DNA of 20,799 bases from a virus: positions 1-20,799 of IMG/VR virus record IMGVR_UViG_3300045999_001352, one strand, 5' to 3'. Below, one piece after another: positions 10,359 to 19,663 of the stretch (the stretch's first letter is position 1; each line of letters begins with the position of its first letter). The notes beneath the pieces were generated by a model. It saw nothing but the letters and a program-made list of their open reading frames with translations, had not been told where the DNA came from and did no database searches. A program made the position numbers and the translations under genes.

Positions 10359-12346
10359 TGCCGCGTTTTGTAGACTTCACCACAAACTTTAGCACCGGCG
10401 AATTAGATCCGCTGTTGCGTGCTCGCGTGGATCTGCAGGCATATGCTAATGCTTTGTCTAAGGCTACGAATGTATTGATCCAGCCGCAAGGTGGATTGCG
10501 TCGTCGACCTGGCTTAAAGCATATTTATGAATTACCAAACACCAGCACAGAGTCTGCCGGCAATGGTGTGCGCATGGTTTCATTCCAGTTCTCTGTCGAT
10601 GATTCCTACATGCTTGTTTTTACGCACAACAGAATGTACGTCATTAAAAATGGCGTAGTACAAACAAACATCAATGGCAGTGGCAATCCATACCTGACAA
10701 CCACCATAGGCAGCACCATTGTTGACGATATGTGCTGGACGCAATCAGCAGATACTTTGATTGTTGTGCATCCTGATATTCAGCCGGTAAGGATTACCAG
10801 AACAAGCGACACCGCATGGACATCTACAACCATTACATTTGATAGCATTCCAAAATATGCTTTTACATTAACAACTACAACACCAACTTCTGGCCATTTA
10901 ACACCGAGCGCTGTTTCAGGTAATGTGACTTTAACTTCGCAGAACTCTGCTTTTTCTGCGTCAAGTGTGAATCAGTATATAAATGCATCACCACAAGGTA
11001 GGGCTAGAATTGTTGAATATGTTAGCAACACTATTGTAAAAGCCGTGGTTGAATATCCGTTTTTTAATACTAGCAATATTCCGCAAGGAAGCTGGGAAGT
11101 TGAAAGTGGATATGAGGATGTGTGGTCAAGCGCTAAAGGTTGGCCGCGCACGGTTACATTCCACGAAGGACGATTATATTTTGGCGGGTCTAAGTCTAGG
11201 CCGTCTACGGTATGGGGTAGCAAGATCGGTTTGTTTTTTGATTTTGTGCCAAACGAATCATTAGATGATGATGCTGTTGAGGCCACGCTAGACACTAACG
11301 ATCTAAACGTCATTATTGACATTGTTAGCTCGCGTGACTTCCAGGTATTTACTACTGGCGGTGAATTCTATGTACCACAGCAGGGAACAGATCCAATCAC
11401 TCCGCTTACCTTTACGTTTAAGAATGTCAGCAGAAATGGATCTAAGCCTGGCACGCGGGTGCAATCGGTTGAGTCTGGCTCTGTCTACATCCAGCGCCAA
11501 GGCAAATCACTTAATGAGTTTGTCTTCTCTGATACTCAGCTCACTTACATAACGCAGCGCATATCATTGCTGGCTGGACATCTACTTAAAAGCCCACAGC
11601 GCATTGCATTACGCAGAGCATCAAGCACAGATGAATCAGATCTCCTGCTGATGACAAACACTAGCGATGGCAGCATGGCTATATTCTCAATTATGCGTAG
11701 CCAGCAAATTACATCGCCAAGTGAGTTCACTACTGACGGTGAATTTATTGATGTTGGCGTAGATGTGACGCAAATTTATGTAGTTACTAAACGCGTATTT
11801 AATGGCACAACAAGGTACTTTATTGAGCAGTTCAAAGACGACTTGTATACAGATTGTGCATTTGTGGGCGCATCAGCCGGTGGCGTTGGCAGTGGCTTGC
11901 CGCACATTGGTAAGTCGCTTAATGTGATTACCGATGGCGTGCCACAATCAAATGAAACAGTTAGCGCTGGTGGCGCTGTGACGTTTGATCGTGAATCAAC
12001 AACCAGCTATGAGGTTGGCTTGCCGATTACTGTGTACGTCAAAACCATGCCGGTTGAAATTAAATTACAGACAGGCAGCAGGGTATCGTTTAAAAAGCGT
12101 ATTGTGGAAATTAGTGCAGTGCTTAAAGATACACAGCATATGCTAATGAATGACCAACCGGTTATTACTAGGACGCTTGATAATCCTTTGCTTGATTTAG
12201 CGGTGCCTACATTTACAGGGATTAAGCGCGTCAATGGCGTGCTTGGTTATCGTAATGAGCAGGCAATTGAGGTGGCACAAAACCTTCCGTTAAAAATGAA
12301 TTTGCTTGGACTCGATTATAGAGTCGCCGTTTATTCAGGAACATAA
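10358..12346 (+). CDS. Tail tubular protein B (nozzle), T7 gp12-like
   Basis: This 662-residue protein begins PRFVDFTTNFSTGELDPLLRARVDLQAYANALSKATN, followed by QPQGGLRRRPGLKHIYEL, a combination diagnostic of the gp12-like nozzle family. Also typical are SFQFSVDDSYMLVF, DTLIVVHPDIQPVRITR, GWPRTVTFHEGRLYFGGSKSRPSTVW-type strands and the beta-propeller-like repeats that follow. It forms the distal tube below the gp11-like adaptor and holds the DNA in until adsorption. The start overlaps the previous stop by one base and is backed by GAGGA. Confidence 0.92.
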   Translation: MPRFVDFTTNFSTGELDPLLRARVDLQAYANALSKATNVLIQPQGGLRRRPGLKHIYELPNTSTESAGNGVRMVSFQFSVDDSYMLVFTHNRMYVIKNGVVQTNINGSGNPYLTTTIGSTIVDDMCWTQSADTLIVVHPDIQPVRITRTSDTAWTSTTITFDSIPKYAFTLTTTTPTSGHLTPSAVSGNVTLTSQNSAFSASSVNQYINASPQGRARIVEYVSNTIVKAVVEYPFFNTSNIPQGSWEVESGYEDVWSSAKGWPRTVTFHEGRLYFGGSKSRPSTVWGSKIGLFFDFVPNESLDDDAVEATLDTNDLNVIIDIVSSRDFQVFTTGGEFYVPQQGTDPITPLTFTFKNVSRNGSKPGTRVQSVESGSVYIQRQGKSLNEFVFSDTQLTYITQRISLLAGHLLKSPQRIALRRASSTDESDLLLMTNTSDGSMAIFSIMRSQQITSPSEFTTDGEFIDVGVDVTQIYVVTKRVFNGTTRYFIEQFKDDLYTDCAFVGASAGGVGSGLPHIGKSLNVITDGVPQSNETVSAGGAVTFDRESTTSYEVGLPITVYVKTMPVEIKLQTGSRVSFKKRIVEISAVLKDTQHMLMNDQPVITRTLDNPLLDLAVPTFTGIKRVNGVLGYRNEQAIEVAQNLPLKMNLLGLDYRVAVYSGT

Positions 12347-12347
12347 T

Positions 12348-12977
12348 ATGGCAGATCCAATTTTAGCCGGTGCAAATTTTATTGCTGCCTATGGCCAAGC
12401 CCAGGCACAGCAAGCTGCCGCTATTCAACAGCAGACAGGCTACTTACTGCAGGCAAGAAATACGCTGGCTGTGTCAGAAGTTAATGCCACATTTTCACAG
12501 CAACACGCAAACATTCAGGCTGGTCGCACATTAAAGCGAGCAGAAATTGATGCAATGAATTATCAGATTGCTGGTAATACATTGTTAAAAAACATGCGAG
12601 CAGTAAATGCTTCTGTTCGCGCTAGAGCTGCGGCATCTGGTATTTCATTTGGCGAAGGTTCTGCTGCTGCTATCCAGCAACAAAATATAGCAAACACAAT
12701 GTTTGATGTTGGTATTACTGATTTAAGCGCATTGACTGCACGCATAATGGGTTTTGAAGATGCGTCTGCAATGATGCAGTCAACAGAGATACAGAACATT
12801 GTTAATCAGTTTTCTGCGAAACAGCAAACAGGTCAGTACAATTTGGCGGCATCTGCTGCGCGTAGCACTGGTGGTTTAATGGCTACGCAAACGCTTATTA
12901 GGGGCGGCATTGATGCTTACAAAGTAGGCAGCGGTGACGCTCCTAAAACCGCAAAAGCTCCTTCTACTTTAGGTTAA
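12348..12977 (+). CDS. Internal virion protein, T7 gp14-like
   Basis: I place the start at ATG 12348, giving 209 residues, because it sits one base after the tail tubular B stop with AGGA at 12337-12340. An in-frame ATG at 12306 would add 14 residues deep inside the upstream gene. The sequence is Ala/Gln-rich and helical (GANFIAAYGQAQAQQAAAIQQQ; ARNTLAVSEVNATFSQQHANIQAG). It contains the RAAASGISFGEGSAAA segment that corresponds to the gp14-type (A)SG-x(5)-GS landmark, followed by a second long helix. Gp14-like proteins are ejected first and make a channel in the outer membrane. Length (T7 gp14 is about 196) and position fit well. Confidence 0.78.
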   Translation: MADPILAGANFIAAYGQAQAQQAAAIQQQTGYLLQARNTLAVSEVNATFSQQHANIQAGRTLKRAEIDAMNYQIAGNTLLKNMRAVNASVRARAAASGISFGEGSAAAIQQQNIANTMFDVGITDLSALTARIMGFEDASAMMQSTEIQNIVNQFSAKQQTGQYNLAASAARSTGGLMATQTLIRGGIDAYKVGSGDAPKTAKAPSTLG

Positions 12978-12979
12978 AT

Positions 12980-14764
12980 ATGGCTACTAGATTGATGTCA
13001 GGTCAGGTGCAAGCTAGGCAAGTCGGTAATGTGCCGATGAAAGAGATTAGCCAACAGCAAACCAATTTTATGGTTGCGGCTAATGTTCAGTCACGAGAGT
13101 CCGACACGCTTGCGCAAATCTTAAATGACATGAGGTCTACTGTTTTAGAATTTAGCGGTAAAAAACGTATGAAAGAGGGTTTGCAATATGTAGCAGAAAA
13201 TCCAGTAACAAGAGAACAAATAGATTTAGCAGCTGGTGGAATTATTAGTCCTACGCTTGGCGGTGGGATTGGTAAAGAATCAGGAGACTTGCCTAGCTTT
13301 TTTAATCAAGCTGTTCAAGAAGCAAGAAGCGCAGAACTTACTAATCATTTTTTAATTGAAGGAAAAACAGTTCTTTCTAGATTGTTAAACAATCTTGAAA
13401 ACAATCGTCCTGGTGTAACACCGGAATCAATTAAAACAGAAATTACTTCTGTAACTAAAGGTCTTTCAAAAGCGTTATCAGCCGTAGACCCAACAGCCGC
13501 AATAAAGCTCCAAGCATCTATGGCTACGCATGGTAATGCAGTTTTAAATGCGGCGTATGAATTCCAACTTAAAAAAAATAAAGAGTTAAATGAAATAAAA
13601 TTTTATGGAAGTATTGAAGATGACAAAAAAAGACTTAAAGATGTAATTAAAAATGGAGCCACTGTTGACCCGCAAACTAATTTGCCAATAACAGTTGATG
13701 ATCGTCTAAATCAAATACGCGAAGAAACTCTTAGCGCGGCGATTACTCTTGGCGACGCAAACATATACAAAGAACATCTTGGAAAAATTGATGGTTTTAT
13801 ACTTAATGCAAAAATAAATGTAATTAGTGAACATTTATTGGGTGATAAGTTTTTGAATGATCCATCAAAAACTTTAACAGATATTCGTGATAGGACTATT
13901 GATAAGTATGGTGATTTGTTAAAAACTCTTGATTCTGACTCTATTAAAAAAATCACTGCTGATTTTATGATTGCATCTAATACTAGAGAGGAATTAAAAA
14001 GAAACAAACGCGATGAAGAAAAGCGCAATGGAGAAGCTGCTGCAATCAATTTGTTAGAGCAGATATATCCAATTAAAGATCCAAAAAATCCAACGCGCAT
14101 GGCATTAGTAAAAAAACTAATGGAGTTGCCACCTGGCTCACTACCAATTGGAACAATAAAAGATCTTCTTGAGCCAGAGAAAGAAGGCGAAGGAAATCCG
14201 CTTGCTGAATACAATGCATTGGGAATGATATTTGATAACAAGATCACAACCAAAGAACAGCTAGATAGAATCCCAGGTTTAAATGCAAGACAGCGCTTAT
14301 CGTTATTAAAGGCACTACGCACAGAAAATAAAGAAGGTTTGCGCACACTTGATACTGGTTTAAATAAATTAGCAGGTTTCCCAACGGAGCCTGGAGGATT
14401 GTTTGTTATTGACAAGAAAAGCGAAGAGTTTAAACGCAAACAAGAATTAAAAGTTAGGGCTGCTGAAATTGAAAGAGACGCCAATAACGAAGGTAAGGTG
14501 TTGACTGAGGCACAGATAATCGACAAGATGGAAAAAGAAATTCTCGAAAAGAGAAATTCAGTAGAAGCAAAACAAGCAAAAGAATCATTGGATAATTTTG
14601 TCAAAGATAAGGCTGGAAAAATAAAGCCTGATCGTGATTGGATTACAGGGCCGGTTAATAAGCAAACATTGCCAGCGCTAAGAGAAAAGGCCAAAGGCGA
14701 TCAAAAGAAACTACGGCAGATCCAAGAGATTGAGCGCTTGTTAAAAGTGTCAGAAGGAATCTAG
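12980..14764 (+). CDS. Internal virion/ejection protein, T7 gp15-like by position
   Basis: This 594-residue protein is predicted almost wholly helical, with long Lys/Glu-rich stretches (for example KRNKRDEEKRNGEAAAINLLEQIYPI and the C-terminal region from 470). The N-terminus (RLMSGQVQARQVGNVPMKEISQQQTNF) resembles the start of gp15-like or stabilising internal proteins of environmental podoviruses. It lies between the gp14-like protein and two larger ejection proteins and starts 3 nt after the previous stop. T7 gp15 is longer (about 747). Much of the gene, roughly 13190-14130, is clearly more A+T-rich than its neighbours, with AAA/ATT/TTA codons preferred. That may mean a different history or weak constraint. 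The functional call rests on gene order and fold character, not on a decisive motif. Confidence 0.65.
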   Translation: MATRLMSGQVQARQVGNVPMKEISQQQTNFMVAANVQSRESDTLAQILNDMRSTVLEFSGKKRMKEGLQYVAENPVTREQIDLAAGGIISPTLGGGIGKESGDLPSFFNQAVQEARSAELTNHFLIEGKTVLSRLLNNLENNRPGVTPESIKTEITSVTKGLSKALSAVDPTAAIKLQASMATHGNAVLNAAYEFQLKKNKELNEIKFYGSIEDDKKRLKDVIKNGATVDPQTNLPITVDDRLNQIREETLSAAITLGDANIYKEHLGKIDGFILNAKINVISEHLLGDKFLNDPSKTLTDIRDRTIDKYGDLLKTLDSDSIKKITADFMIASNTREELKRNKRDEEKRNGEAAAINLLEQIYPIKDPKNPTRMALVKKLMELPPGSLPIGTIKDLLEPEKEGEGNPLAEYNALGMIFDNKITTKEQLDRIPGLNARQRLSLLKALRTENKEGLRTLDTGLNKLAGFPTEPGGLFVIDKKSEEFKRKQELKVRAAEIERDANNEGKVLTEAQIIDKMEKEILEKRNSVEAKQAKESLDNFVKDKAGKIKPDRDWITGPVNKQTLPALREKAKGDQKKLRQIQEIERLLKVSEGI

Positions 14765-14765
14765 C

Positions 14766-16649
14766 ATGGCATACAGCCCGATTGAACAGCGTTATATTGA
14801 CATGATGGTAGAGAGTTATTTCCCTACCGCGCAGCCTGAGCCTATGGTCGAAGAAGAGCCAAGCCTGGAAGGCGTGCAACTTGCTGCAGGCCCAAGTGAT
14901 ACGCGCACAGATGCTCCTGCTAATGTTGGCAGGGCAAAGGCACCGACAACTCCAGAGCAAGCAGCCGATCTAATGCGTAGCATGCCATTGGAAACGCAAT
15001 CGCAAATGATCATGCGCAGAATTGCCGAAGATCAAAAGGCTGGTATTAGTGGTGCTGTTATTCCAAAAGATAGGACGATGCGTCAAAATATGGTCAGTGG
15101 TATGCAGCAAATGCTTATTGATAATACAGGCATGGACAATGCACGCGCACGCAAATTATCTGAAACAATGTTTGGTGGCGAAAGCTCTGGCATACCGTTA
15201 GGTATTGGCTTGATAGATTTAACTCCTTTTGTAATTCCATTTGCGGCACAAGAAGCTGGTATATCAGCCGGTGAAGCTAAAGAAGCCGCAGCAAGTGGTG
15301 AATATGGAACGGCTGCACTAAAGTATGGTGAAGGCATACTGCAATCATTAGATACCGCACCTGGTATTGGGCTTGCAATTAAAGGAGGTGAAGCAGTTGT
15401 TAAAGGATTGGCTCCTGCGGCTGCAGATGTAATTGAAATGGGATTGCGTAAAGCTGGAATGATTATGGACATCACTCCAGAAGGCCCTGCTCAAGTTGTA
15501 ATACCTGTAAAGGTTGGTGAGCGTGAGGTAAAGATCCCAGCAAATCAAGCGGCAACTTTACAAAAAGCTCTTAAAAATTTAACTCCAGAAGAGCAAGCAA
15601 AATTCAGATCTGATACTGCATCTAAATTTGTAAATATCTTAAAGCAGTTACCAAGCAAAGAAGAGTTTGGCGCTGCTTCTATTGCAGGCAAAGCAAAGAA
15701 GGGATGGTACGAGGGAAGCACTCAGGCAATCGTGCAAGTGTTTGGCCCTGACTCCTCTCGCTTTGCGGCATTGCTCTCTGCTACCAGCCCACAAACTAGC
15801 GTTGAATCAAATCTATTTAACGCGCTACAAGTTTGGAAAAACTGGACTGCAGCAGGTAGACCAACTGATCGTGAATCAATTGTGCGGGTAATGGGTCAAA
15901 GCGTGCAAGGCAGCAAAGGCGAAGAGTCTGTGCTTGATGCTTGGATCAATAATAGCGTGCGAGCTCTATCTGCAGAAGACCCATCAACAGTTGTGCTATC
16001 TGGCCCCAAAGTAAATAGTTTTATGCTGAACTTGCAGGGCAATGTTAATGAAGTGACAAATGATGCATGGATGGCGGCATTTACTTATGTTGACCAGAAC
16101 TTGTTTAGTGGATCATTGACGAAGGGTGGAGATCCAGGTAAAGGCCCAGGCTACATTGCAATGAATGCAAGGGTGCGCGAAACTGCAACATATCTTACAA
16201 AAATTACTGGTGAAACATGGACACCAGCCGAGGTTCAAGAGACAATTTGGTCATGGGCAAAAACCCTATATGAGACAGCTGGCGCAAAAGGTGAGAAGCG
16301 GTCAGCTGTTCAGCTTATCCAGGACAATGCAATTACTGATGAACTAATTGCGGCTACTCCAGACTTTAGGACACTTTTCTATGATGAACGATTCGCCCCA
16401 ATCCTTGAACAAGCAGGATACTCAGACCAGCTCTCTCAACTCAGAGCAGCTACTTCAGGATCTGATGCTACAGCAGGAGCAAAAAAACCCGGATCTAGCG
16501 GCCAAGCAAGCTCGGTTGATGCAGATTCTCAAAGGAAGTACCTCGAACGAAATGCCAAGCGCTTAGATAAGCTGCGAGCTGATCGAGAGAAGGAGGCTGC
16601 TGCAAAAGCAAAAGCCAAAACACAAACCCCAACTGGAGGTGTTGAGTAA
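14766..16649 (+). CDS. Internal virion protein with a HhH-GPD DNA glycosylase-like domain
   Basis: This 627-residue protein has an acidic, Pro-rich N-terminus, an Ala/Gly-rich hydrophobic region (about 142-230) that could insert in membranes, a conserved-looking domain (about 300-505), and a Lys/Ala-rich helical tail. I recognise the domain from other podovirus virion proteins (SPQTSVESN, LSGPKVNSF, EVTNDAWMA, GKGPGY, TGETWTPAEVQET). It resembles endonuclease III-type glycosylases: ALLSATSPQTSVESN is like Nth VLLSAQATDVSVNK, and LSGPK(V) followed by TNDAW matches LPGVGRK(T) followed by VDTH. K415 and D433 are 18 residues apart, as are Nth K120 and D138. The hairpin is two residues shorter than GVG-x-K, and there are no cysteines for a 4Fe-4S cluster. 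It is placed among ejection proteins, with a TAATG overlap to the next gene. Enzymatic activity is inference. Confidence 0.65.
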   Translation: MAYSPIEQRYIDMMVESYFPTAQPEPMVEEEPSLEGVQLAAGPSDTRTDAPANVGRAKAPTTPEQAADLMRSMPLETQSQMIMRRIAEDQKAGISGAVIPKDRTMRQNMVSGMQQMLIDNTGMDNARARKLSETMFGGESSGIPLGIGLIDLTPFVIPFAAQEAGISAGEAKEAAASGEYGTAALKYGEGILQSLDTAPGIGLAIKGGEAVVKGLAPAAADVIEMGLRKAGMIMDITPEGPAQVVIPVKVGEREVKIPANQAATLQKALKNLTPEEQAKFRSDTASKFVNILKQLPSKEEFGAASIAGKAKKGWYEGSTQAIVQVFGPDSSRFAALLSATSPQTSVESNLFNALQVWKNWTAAGRPTDRESIVRVMGQSVQGSKGEESVLDAWINNSVRALSAEDPSTVVLSGPKVNSFMLNLQGNVNEVTNDAWMAAFTYVDQNLFSGSLTKGGDPGKGPGYIAMNARVRETATYLTKITGETWTPAEVQETIWSWAKTLYETAGAKGEKRSAVQLIQDNAITDELIAATPDFRTLFYDERFAPILEQAGYSDQLSQLRAATSGSDATAGAKKPGSSGQASSVDADSQRKYLERNAKRLDKLRADREKEAAAKAKAKTQTPTGGVE

Positions 16650-19600
16650 TGGCCTCACTTGAACAGCGCCTAGCATCTATATTGCCAGCCCCAGCCCAAG
16701 CGGCTACTGGCGAAATTTCGCTTGAGCCGTTACCTATTGAAGAGCCTGCAGAATCACCAGACATGCCTACTGGTGAGCCTGGCTCTCCTGACATGGATGG
16801 CATGCAGGTTGCCGGCCTTGGTTCAATTCTGCGCAAAGCAGTTACCGAAATAAATCCTAGTGCTGGTAGAAAAATATTACCTAGAAAAGAATTTGTAGCT
16901 CCAGCTCGACTTAAAAATGAATCCGAAGCGGTTTACGCAAAACGAGTTATTGCAGAGCGCGATGCTTTTAAAGCAGAGCAGGCTGATGAATTAAGATTAC
17001 CAGAAGCTGGAAAAGTTGGATCTCAAACAATTATTCCAGAGGCTAGTGAAAAGTTAACTGAAAAAGTTGGCAAAGCCATTAAGGCACGCAAAGCTGGCGG
17101 CGCTGAAATGAGAACTGGAAAGCCAAGCCCAAGCGCAGAAGAGGCGGCAATGGGCGTGCCTGTTGAGCCATTTAATCTATCGCGTTACCAGACAGATGAT
17201 GCAGCCGCTGTGGTTGGTGGTGTGGCTGATGCGCTTAATATTAAAACCAAGCGTGTTACGTTTGATGAAATTAAGCAGAAAGCAGAAGCCAGCGGCATCA
17301 GCGAATCATTCCTTGCACGCTTAGTTACTCCTGATGGTGGCATGCTGCCAAGTGCAGTTGATACCTACAAAGCATTGCAGGTATTGGAGTCTAGTTCTAC
17401 TGAGTTGGATCGCTTATTCAAGCTGGTTGATTCTGGTCTGGCTACCGATGTAGATAAGCTGGCATTGCGGCAGCAGATTGCTTTCCACGGCTTAGTACAA
17501 AAAGGTGTAAAGGGTATTCAAACAGAAACAGCTAGAGCTCTGGCTGTCATGCGCATCCCACGCGATGGCAAGTCTCAAGCATTGAAACAAGTATTAGATG
17601 AGTTTGGTGGAGAGAATGCATTAACGGATATGGCCAGGTCTTATCTGTCGCTTGAAACACGCGCAGCCAAAAACGCTATGGTTGAAAAATCCATGATGTC
17701 TGGTGTTAAGGATATTTGGATGTCAACGTGGATCAATGGCCTACTATCGTCGCCTGTGACCCATGCCAAAAACATAATGTCTAATTCTCTGTTTGGTCTG
17801 TACCAGATTCCAGAGCGATTGGTTGCTGGCCTATATTCAAATTATTTACCAAACAAATTAAGAGCTGGCGAATTGCCACCAGGTTTGCGCTGGTTTGGTG
17901 ACCGGGTGCCAGGTAGCGAAGCGCAGCGCATTGAGCTGGATGAGGCTCTAACAATGACGCTATCCTTACGCAATGCAATTGCAGAGGGTTTTGAGTTGGC
18001 CTCCAAAGCGTGGAAGTCAAACACTCCGCAAATGGATATTGCCAGCAAAGTAGAACTCAGCCGACAGCCTATGGAAAGCATGGGCGAATCATTGCAGCGT
18101 ATGACTGGTGCCAGTGCGGATAGCTGGATCGGCAAAGGCATGGACTACTACGGCACCGCAATCACTTTTCCTGGTCGTGCATTGATGACTGAGGATGAGT
18201 TTTTTAAAGGTGTGCTTTACCGTATGGAAATGAATACGCAGGTGACGCGGCGATCAAAACAAATATATCGCGAATCGCTTGCGTCTGGCATGAATGAACA
18301 AGATGCAATTGCAAAAGCTACCAAAGAAGCCGAGGATTTGCTGGCTAACCCACCGCGGGATTTAGATGAAGCGGCAATGGAGTTTGCCAAGCAAGGCACT
18401 TTCCAAGCTGATTTACCACCAGCACTAGCTCAATTACAGCGCGTGTTTAATCACCCGGTTGGTAAAATTATTGTGCCATTCTTTAAAACACCGGCAAACA
18501 TTGGTCTTAATGTAATTGAGCGCACACCGTTTGCGCCGCTGTCATCTAGGTGGCAGAAGGCGATTGCAGCTGGGGGGCCAGAGCGCGACATGGCATTGGC
18601 CAAAGTATCGTTAGGGTCTACTGTATTAACCGGTTTTGCATTTTGGGCGGCAGAAGGCAATTTAACAGGCAGAGGGCCAGAGCGCAAAGAAGAGCGCGAA
18701 GCATTGCTGCGAACAGGTTGGCAACCATACAGCATGAAGCTGGGTGATAAATGGTATAGCTTCCAAGGTATGGAGCCAATCGGCGCGTTAATGGCCATTG
18801 CTGCTGACTATGCTGAGTATGCCAAACATGAGCCCGATGCCACCAAGGTTGAAGAGGTATTTCTTGGTGCAACCTATGGCCTGTATGAGTACCTGAAAGA
18901 GCAGCCTTATTTGCAAGGTATTGCCGATGTTGGCAAGCTAATTGGATTTAATGAATCTGGCCGGGTAGATGGTGAAAAGATAGTCAACGGTCTGACCAAG
19001 CAGTTTGGCGGGTTCCTAATTGGTGGATCACCAGGCGGGGCATACAGCTCATCAGTGGCAGCTATAGATCGTTTACTAGATCCAACCAAGAAAGATACCA
19101 AAGCTAATCCAGATTTACCTATGGGGGTGCGTGGTTTTGTTGAGGCATTCAATCAATACCGCAGCCGGTTGCCATACTTTAGCGAGTCGGTGCCTGAATC
19201 ATTAAACCTATGGGGCGACACCATGAAGCGCAGCCAGGGCAATTTGCTTGAGCTGGTTCTGCCGACTAAAGTATCGCCTGATCAATTCTCAGAGGTTGAT
19301 GATTTGCTGGTGGAGATTGGTTCACCCATTGGTGTGCCTGATCGAAAAACATCATTCACGGTTGGCCAGGGAGAAGGTTCGATTTCATCGCCGATTGAAT
19401 TAGCCCCGGAACAATACAATCGACTACTAGAAATTTATGGCAAGGAAACACCAGCCAAACAAGCCATTCTTGACACTATGAATATGCCTGGCTTTGAACG
19501 GCTGCCATTGGATCAAAAGCAGAAGACGGTGCAGAAAATACACAGTCAGTTTATGAGTTTTGCAAAACAAAAGCTGATGGCTGAGTACCCGGAAATACAA

Positions 19601-19663
19601 GACAAAATCATGGATATTGGCGAGGCTAGGCAATCGTACGGTATCTATTACAAACCTGATTAA
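16649..19663 (+). CDS. Large internal virion (DNA ejection) protein, gp16-like by position
   Basis: At 1004 residues this is the largest protein in the window and the last of the ejection block. It overlaps the previous stop by one base, with GGAGG upstream. The N-terminal 170 residues are acidic then Lys-rich and probably flexible. A helical core spans about 340-860, with hydrophobic stretches at 651-665 (AKVSLGSTVLTGFAF) and 710-722 (PIGALMAIAADYA). The block GWQPYSMKLGDKWYSFQGMEPIG (in parts, residues 690-712) is a landmark I know from large internal proteins of many podoviruses. I find no lytic transglycosylase (SLT) catalytic pattern, which T7 gp16 carries at its N-terminus, so peptidoglycan cutting must come from elsewhere. 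Its first 55 residues share a layout with the preceding protein. Confidence 0.75.
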   Translation: MASLEQRLASILPAPAQAATGEISLEPLPIEEPAESPDMPTGEPGSPDMDGMQVAGLGSILRKAVTEINPSAGRKILPRKEFVAPARLKNESEAVYAKRVIAERDAFKAEQADELRLPEAGKVGSQTIIPEASEKLTEKVGKAIKARKAGGAEMRTGKPSPSAEEAAMGVPVEPFNLSRYQTDDAAAVVGGVADALNIKTKRVTFDEIKQKAEASGISESFLARLVTPDGGMLPSAVDTYKALQVLESSSTELDRLFKLVDSGLATDVDKLALRQQIAFHGLVQKGVKGIQTETARALAVMRIPRDGKSQALKQVLDEFGGENALTDMARSYLSLETRAAKNAMVEKSMMSGVKDIWMSTWINGLLSSPVTHAKNIMSNSLFGLYQIPERLVAGLYSNYLPNKLRAGELPPGLRWFGDRVPGSEAQRIELDEALTMTLSLRNAIAEGFELASKAWKSNTPQMDIASKVELSRQPMESMGESLQRMTGASADSWIGKGMDYYGTAITFPGRALMTEDEFFKGVLYRMEMNTQVTRRSKQIYRESLASGMNEQDAIAKATKEAEDLLANPPRDLDEAAMEFAKQGTFQADLPPALAQLQRVFNHPVGKIIVPFFKTPANIGLNVIERTPFAPLSSRWQKAIAAGGPERDMALAKVSLGSTVLTGFAFWAAEGNLTGRGPERKEEREALLRTGWQPYSMKLGDKWYSFQGMEPIGALMAIAADYAEYAKHEPDATKVEEVFLGATYGLYEYLKEQPYLQGIADVGKLIGFNESGRVDGEKIVNGLTKQFGGFLIGGSPGGAYSSSVAAIDRLLDPTKKDTKANPDLPMGVRGFVEAFNQYRSRLPYFSESVPESLNLWGDTMKRSQGNLLELVLPTKVSPDQFSEVDDLLVEIGSPIGVPDRKTSFTVGQGEGSISSPIELAPEQYNRLLEIYGKETPAKQAILDTMNMPGFERLPLDQKQKTVQKIHSQFMSFAKQKLMAEYPEIQDKIMDIGEARQSYGIYYKPD

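Follow-up and report, generated by a model that had tools for sequence, protein, structure and literature searches.

A candidate phage ejection protein with a predicted HhH-GPD base-excision domain as exchangeable cargo

The IMG/VR record IMGVR_UViG_3300045999_001352, from an uncultured bacterial virus, was analysed over positions 1 to 20,799 (the window, 20,799 nucleotides), in which an open reading frame (ORF) of 627 amino acids (aa) at 14766..16649 on the + strand, here called the slot gene, was found to contain a domain of the family DUF7178. On balance, we favour the reading that this gene encodes an ejection-type protein with a C-terminal HhH-GPD base-excision cargo, most like the 8-oxoguanine (8-oxoG) glycosylases. 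Its product consists of an N-terminal part (residues 1-278, 14766..15599) that is constant in slot genes, matched by profile in 49/55 slot ORFs and presumed to be the virion or ejection part, an HhH-GPD-like domain (residues 279-528, 15600..16349) placed by AlphaFold2 and VIA-align, and a short C-terminal tail (residues 529-627 and the stop codon, 16350..16649), all on the + strand. Pfam DUF7178 (PF23802) was the only domain recognised in this protein (34 bits, cut-off 27), and the gene also matched phrog_3842 with an expect value (E) of 5e-9.

From the predicted models, it appears almost certain that the domain has the HhH-GPD fold and active-site residues. Residues 279-542, modelled by AlphaFold2 with 33 relatives, reached a predicted local distance difference test score (pLDDT) of 91.1 and a predicted template modelling score (pTM) of 0.88. 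With VIA-align this model was closest to T. maritima OGG2 (Z 11.4 over 183 residues, root mean square deviation 3.7), with further Z values of 11.1 for M. jannaschii OGG2, 8.2 for MagIII, 7.8 for human OGG1 (hOGG1), 7.7 for AGOG, 7.5 for MutY and 6.6 for endonuclease III (EndoIII or Nth). Rows 1-19 were all HhH-GPD glycosylases, 18 being so named and row 16 being a Pyrococcus 'hypothetical protein', and the first unrelated row (Z 4.5) came only after two rows of the phage glycinyltransferase PUGT. A replicate model of a standalone sister protein, built from its own alignment of 45 IMG/VR sequences of which none was of the slot type, reached pLDDT 96.2. For this sister, Foldseek returned 8-oxoguanine glycosylases at all ranks from 1 to 10 (best E 5.6e-3 at probability 1.00, no E value under 0.001), and VIA-align gave SsOgg (OGG2) at Z 13.0 and EndoIII at up to 10.5, the 50 listed rows being entirely of the HhH-GPD superfamily. 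The all-helical, two-subdomain fold of these glycosylases is seen in both predicted models, and model helices 113-124 and 136-145 flank a hairpin two residues shorter than the G-h-G type. Against a viral set, Foldseek matched the window's model to phage proteins without known function or with polyvalent names.

The original prediction, made from the letters of the window, had described an endonuclease III-like HhH-GPD domain, and the models uphold the fold and not the label, as the OGG2/OGG1 enzymes are structurally closer and EndoIII ranks lower. On the models, the nearest kin are the 8-oxoguanine glycosylases rather than endonuclease III. With Nth the domain shares the fold and a Lys/Asp pair at +18, whereas it differs in its lower structural rank, its OGG-type pocket residues and the lack of an iron-sulphur (Fe-S) cluster. 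Two cautions attached to the prediction proved accurate: residues 279-528 are devoid of cysteine, and therefore of an Fe-S cluster, and the hairpin reads L-S-G-P-K where Nth has L-P-G-V-G-R-K, a shortfall of two residues. Pfam EndIII_4Fe-2S matched Nth and none of the tested DUF7178 proteins. Close kinship with endonuclease III specifically was rejected because the OGG enzymes rank higher and the Fe-S cysteines are lacking.

The likeness to the OGG2, OGG1 and AGOG enzymes extends from the fold to the Lys/Asp pair, an aromatic residue at K+4, a His or Trp at D+2 and a Gln/Asp-x3-aromatic pair. The short hairpin G413-P-K415 with F419 (16002..16022, + strand) would supply the catalytic Lys and a base-stacking Phe, D433-A-W435 (16062..16070, + strand) the catalytic Asp and the D+2 residue, and Q491-x3-W495 (16236..16250, + strand) the base-pocket pair at the position of hOGG1 Gln315/Phe319. 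Because the structural alignments stop within the C-terminal helix, the register of this helix is fixed provided that no gap lies inside it; in 5/5 mammalian OGG1 rows residue 223 of the window model falls on hOGG1 325 (or 221 on 323), which puts Q491 on hOGG1 315 and W495 on hOGG1 319. For the sister the same register was given by 30/34 mammalian OGG1 rows, the other four being shifted by three residues, and its Gln/Trp fell on OGG2 194 and 198 in 4/4 OGG2 rows. The pair that moves in the base pocket is given as Gln315/Phe319 in hOGG1, Asp194/Trp198 in MjaOGG2 and Asp218/Trp222 in AGOG, and hOGG1 His270, at Asp268 +2, is described as touching the phosphate, in the passages of PMC3397491 drawn on here. 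In Pab-AGOG, the part of PMC9638937 used here describes a base sandwiched between Phe146, which is catalytic Lys142 +4, and Trp212. The bacterial OGG1 sequences compared here read VDVW or IDIW at the D+2 site. The Gln/Asp-x3-aromatic pair in the C-terminal helix, a trait of 8-oxoguanine glycosylases, is present in the domain as Q491/W495. Against this likeness, the window domain has a shorter hairpin, only 7-15% identity in structural alignments and no OGG1 N-terminal domain; the AGOG hairpin shows that the HhH-GPD hairpin can vary.

Invariance of the proposed active-site residues is the second line of evidence. When IMG/VR was scanned with residues 279-528, 126 relatives came up and 80 of them were retained; K415 and D433 were identical in 65/65 aligned rows. 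Standalone members of about 200 aa occur in named phages, 155 records matching one such query, and Pfam DUF7178 was assigned to 7/7 tested phage proteins and to 33/33 members of our alignment A1. With 19 standalone proteins found by tblastn (A2) the window shares 15-24% identity and the same conserved residues, and in an alignment of 26 rows eleven columns were invariant (W314, Y315, S341, P342, N349, K415, F419, V430, D433, Q491 and W495). Among 216 distinct homologues, with a minimum identity to the window of 16%, K415, F419, D433, S341, P342 and N349 were retained in 216/216 and Q491 and W495 in 215/216 with one gap each, while the D+2 residue was His in 135 and Trp in 81. The check on K415 and D433 that the original prediction had proposed thus found both unvarying in three alignments. 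Two further conserved elements on the + strand are the pair W314-Y315 (15705..15710; 214/216 and 215/216) and the loop plus helix S341-P342...N349 (15786..15812), at the position of the Nth 'LLSAQ' helix.

Of 341 matched ORFs, these 216 were left once duplicates and sequences below 150 aa had been set aside, and most came from pattern scans with EVTNDAWM, DGHAYSVW, VQETIWSW and QAITW forms, so the invariance of D433 and Q491/W495 is partly due to selection by patterns containing these residues. K415 stood in no scan pattern, and F419 only in FYQCIIGK, which starts at F419. The ratio of nonsynonymous to synonymous substitutions in the domain was 0.03-0.04 in 4/7 pairs, the other three being saturated; the domain is under strong purifying selection. 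A pattern scan of bacterial and archaeal genomes from 84,980 species yielded four loci, and therefore the slot-type domain is essentially viral. No match was obtained by tblastn of the full-length protein against phages or by a plasmid search with one relative. Standalone DUF7178 proteins also lie outside structural modules, with the same K, D and pocket residues. Record names in the family conflict (glycosylase, N-glycosylase, DNA glycosylase, N-glycosylase/DNA lyase, endonuclease, glycosyltransferase, portal protein, hypothetical protein), and annotators had already suspected its nature, since some standalone members in actinophages and cyanophages are named glycosylases.

Gene order and domain company make it rather likely that the domain is carried in the virion. 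The slot gene is followed by a gp16-like internal virion protein of 1004 aa (16649..19663, + strand; phrog_6651 'internal virion protein', E 2e-33), which is 30.8% identical over 72% to the internal virion protein of Methylophilales phage MEP301. Upstream of it are a gp14-like candidate internal virion protein (12345..12977, + strand; phrog_418 'internal virion protein', E 3e-4) and a 594-aa gene (12980..14764, + strand) assigned to the gp15 position by gene order only, with no family match below E 0.1. By PHROGs the module runs from terminase (2398), head-tail adaptor (5633), head assembly (7482) and major head protein (8526) through tail proteins (9744, 10358), the gp14-like, 594-aa, slot and gp16-like genes to a tail fibre-like gene (19697). 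MEP301 has the same order, its slot being filled by a 161-aa gene without known family. Upstream of the packaging genes, the window also encodes a replication-initiation O-like protein (410-1342; phrog_678, E 2e-9).

In many relatives the domain is embedded in ORFs of 1000-3600 aa. Among eight such giant ORFs scanned, four had ART-PolyVal (three over the cut-off), and three of these also had LPD22, LPD37 or LPD38. One 2963-aa ORF (L153:5559-14447) combined DUF7178 (813-1039), ART-PolyVal (1617-1780) and a gp16-like region (2175-2956, E 1e-47). Giant ORFs are described as far as the fetched flanks reached. Polyvalent proteins have been argued to be injected with phage DNA, and LPD38 is listed as phage-only, in the sections of Iyer et al. 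2017 (PMC5512222) used here. The window protein does not combine several disparate domains in one polypeptide as polyvalent proteins do, whereas L060, L044, L057 and L153 do. The window's gene is small with a single cargo, and some of its giant homologues pair the domain with ART-PolyVal, LPD22, LPD37 or LPD38.

In order to view the slot itself, we scanned IMG/VR with the gp16-like neighbour and without reference to the domain, which gave 66 loci, 54 with an adjacent slot ORF and 12 without one under the limits applied. Together with the window these make a set of 55, near-identical contigs (L396/L397, L398/L399 and others) included, which is free of pattern bias because it was found via the neighbouring gene. 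The slot ORFs (L389-L454), between gp15-like and gp16-like genes, range from 175 to 978 aa and have a constant N-terminal and an exchangeable C-terminal part. A profile of residues 1-232 matched 49/55, of which 29 were its seed and several matched partially, and three forms of 237 aa (L395, L398, L399) are nearly the N-terminal part alone. The signature K-x3-F / D-x-[HW] / Q-x3-W occurred in 35/55 slot ORFs against 1/2750 shuffles; it was defined after the alignments had been inspected and was scored by motif search, since mafft misplaced K and D in three groups. BLAST divided the 35 carriers into four clusters (20, 7, 6 and 2), the cluster of seven uniting the window type with the L410 type, which differs from it visibly.

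Profile-profile comparison of the cargo groups, with 25 shuffles per group as controls, related most of them to DUF7178: the L394 group scored 128, L410 96, L427 43 and L389 30 (33 columns only) with shuffles at most 19-23, the L390 group was marginal (21.6, shuffles 19.1) and the controls L408 and L400 stayed within their shuffles. Against an HhH-GPD set, scores above the shuffles (in brackets) were given by L410 with 29.1 (25.6), L427 with 26.2 (20.5), L390 with 23.5 (21.6) and, marginally, L394 with 19.0 (18.8), and L389 stayed below (19.4 and 21.3). A separate run of 60 shuffles for the L427 group reached at most 21.0, compared with 26.8 observed. The L427 type (L427:5572-7998, also L455-L467) has a full GVGxK hairpin and VVDIH and matched DUF7178 with a probability of 70-74, for which reasons it looks like a bridge from DUF7178 to the classical HhH-GPD domain. 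The 800-aa L390 type (L390, L391, L430, L438, L450) has by eye K-x3-F, Asp and H-x3-W with marginal scores; a possible variant site in it reads NKVVSF...VIDR...HWETW. Among the other fifteen ORFs, five have hardly any cargo or none (175-237 aa), two are of a ParB C-terminal type (L396:5418-6572, also L397; L396 when tested matched phrog_2579 at E 1e-35), four belong to the L408 type and four are singletons (L392, L400, L440, L452), the L408 type and singletons matching unknown or weakly matched PHROGs. DdrB-ParB is among the domains listed for phage polyvalent proteins in the portion of Iyer et al. 2017 (PMC5512222) used here.

Between the window and locus L003 the cargo is identical at 249/250 positions and the N-terminal part at 136/261, with synonymous differences of 0.04 and 0.58, respectively, which places a recombination joint at the domain border because the two share the cargo and not the N-terminal part. 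As judged from these sequences, a cargo slot exists and versions of its cargo are swapped, several versions of the domain occupying one gene of related viruses. The wider interpretation, which we find attractive though somewhat short of probable, is of a dedicated ejection-module slot, in phages that resemble podoviruses, that is refilled with different HhH-GPD glycosylases (four clusters, a fifth likely), with other DNA-acting domains or with nothing, the injected specificity being exchanged like polymorphic toxin tips. The position of the gene among DNA-injection genes and the swapping of versions within it suggest that the domain enters the cell with viral DNA.

Under the favoured reading, residues 1-278 would group the protein with the gp14/15/16-like ejection proteins and the cargo would go into the cell together with the DNA. 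A base, perhaps a purine, might be flipped into a pocket of F419, W495 and Q491, D433 would activate the attack, and K415 would be the nucleophile that may then nick the strand, while W435 may touch the phosphate. The outcome might be the repair of lesions acquired by the packaged genome outside the cell, or the removal of bases from the DNA of the host or of a rival. That several versions are exchanged within one slot shifts the balance slightly towards a conflict role or lesion-specific variants, and because the versions are exchanged and empty slot forms occur, an accessory, conflict-like trait fits slightly better than housekeeping repair.

A number of results weigh against this reading. 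Sequence profiles hardly connect the domain with known HhH-GPD proteins: Pfam PF00730 (HhH-GPD) gave no match to the window at E <= 10, for which reason the domain is not filed under that family, and phmmer and profile searches of PDB sequences found no HhH-GPD entry, the best profile row being an oxidoreductase (E 0.0067) that was taken, like rows of influenza haemagglutinin, as chance. In NCBIfam one of 19 proteins matched 'N-glycosylase/DNA lyase' weakly (E 0.16), and unrelated families matched better, also weakly. Recognition as HhH-GPD by sequence alone was rejected, as the PDB, PF00730 and NCBIfam searches were without convincing match. Profile-profile probability was weak, at most 20, in 18 + 28 comparisons, of which six alignments were inspected and the others judged by score; K fell on K and D on D in 5/6, and the sixth (A1 against Nth) aligned a different, unrelated stretch. 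The 80-member DUF7178 profile scored 22.8 against the HhH-GPD set, above 60 column shuffles (median 11.6, maximum 19.4), and the A4 profile scored 17.9 against the same target, not over the shuffle maximum. Because the sequence-only relation is faint, the case was rested on structure and residues and not on profile statistics.

The motifs first noticed in the window add little by themselves. LSGPK and TNDAW lie where the original prediction had put them, with K415 and D433 18 residues apart as are K120 and D138 of E. coli Nth, and the quoted helix ALLSATSPQTSVESN is present, but at residues 335-349, one later than given. The stretch 15663-16280, which corresponds to residues 300-505 of the ORF, does resemble Nth, but taken alone no more closely than chance would allow: ungapped 15-mers shared at most 7 identities with E. 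coli Nth, at least 7 was reached in 95/200 protein shuffles, and three lysines of the protein (K101, K311, K415) have an Asp at +18. Short motif resemblances, taken alone, are within chance, and it is the residue invariance in homologues and the predicted structures that lift the resemblance above it. On the structural side, a Foldseek PDB search with the window's model gave no significant hit (best E 0.76, to an unrelated entry), VIA-align Z values below about 13 can be frequent among helical proteins, and the hairpin is short. The N7-H-reading residue of OGG enzymes was not identified in the domain, for which reason a purine or 8-oxoG-like substrate is considered rather doubtful. The full signature is missing in 20/55 slot genes, 4/8 giant homologues have DUF7178 as their only Pfam domain, and the gp16-like fusion was seen in 1/98 giant ORFs, many of which are one contig fetched twice.

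The domain is probably an active base-excision enzyme, and the likeliest rival reading is an active glycosylase that is not virion-carried but merely encoded beside virion genes and acting in the infected cell. In the records inspected, standalone DUF7178 genes do have early or accessory genes around them, and in S-CBP2, S-CBP42 and P-SSP10 the gene for RNA polymerase is close by; here, however, the domain is fused to an N-terminal part that 49/55 slot genes have between the same two neighbours, and once to a gp16-like protein, which leaves this reading a modest share of the probability. Less likely still is a non-catalytic domain whose fold is retained only to bind DNA or abasic sites, for the packing or guiding of DNA inside the virion. 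The location among structural genes would suit such a role and inert HhH-GPD homologues are known, the Mag2 structure entries being titled 'glycosylase homolog', but neither K and D nor the pocket residues vary in homologues down to 16% identity, the standalone proteins outside structural modules included, and the slot occurs without cargo too.

Similarly unlikely is an enzyme that builds or rewrites a modified base, as does the 5-PmdU glycinyltransferase PUGT of phage PaMx11. PUGT occupied structural rows 20 and 21 (Z 5.2 and 4.8) and has, by eye, GFK followed 16 residues on by FDNA; it nevertheless stood below 19 other structural rows with low profile scores, its D+2 residue is by eye neither His nor Trp, and a virion-borne enzyme would act before or outside progeny DNA synthesis. 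A chance likeness of an unrelated helical domain, to which the chance-level motifs and the weakness of sequence profiles alone might point, is very improbable, as two models from separate alignments gave the same family with pocket residues in register.

Relative to known systems, the standalone phage proteins of DUF7178/phrog_3842 belong to the same family and have the same invariant residues, whereas the window's copy is the cargo of an ejection-type gene. T4 endonuclease V has a fold other than HhH-GPD. Enzymes of its type are, like the window domain, glycosylases at the phage-host front, but they are encoded as ordinary phage genes. The pyrimidine-dimer glycosylase of roseophage CRP-810 is one such separate gene, as described in part of PMC11288001. 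Brig1, a bacterial defence glycosylase, is also at this front, but its active-site residues, Y121/E147 according to the excerpt of PMC11078745 used here, differ from those of the domain. The word 'glycosylase' does not appear in the main text of the polyvalent-protein paper (Iyer et al. 2017, PMC5512222). No paper naming DUF7178 was found in a literature search that left subscription papers and preprints largely outside, papers touching on both HhH-GPD and phage virions were, judged by their listing, on other subjects, and phage papers on internal virion proteins and DNA glycosylases dealt, in the parts of their texts covered, with pyrimidine-dimer glycosylases as separate genes. The naming of standalone members as glycosylases was already known; the ejection slot and its swapping were not found described in this literature.

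If the reading is true, phages would bring base-excision chemistry into the cell with their DNA, before any gene expression, either as emergency repair of a genome that had suffered damage in sunlit water or as an attack on host or rival DNA. DUF7178, which occurs in well over a hundred phage records, would gain a function, with the residues to be mutated already named, and the slot would provide, at a single genetic position, a natural collection of interchangeable enzymes that are probably injected.

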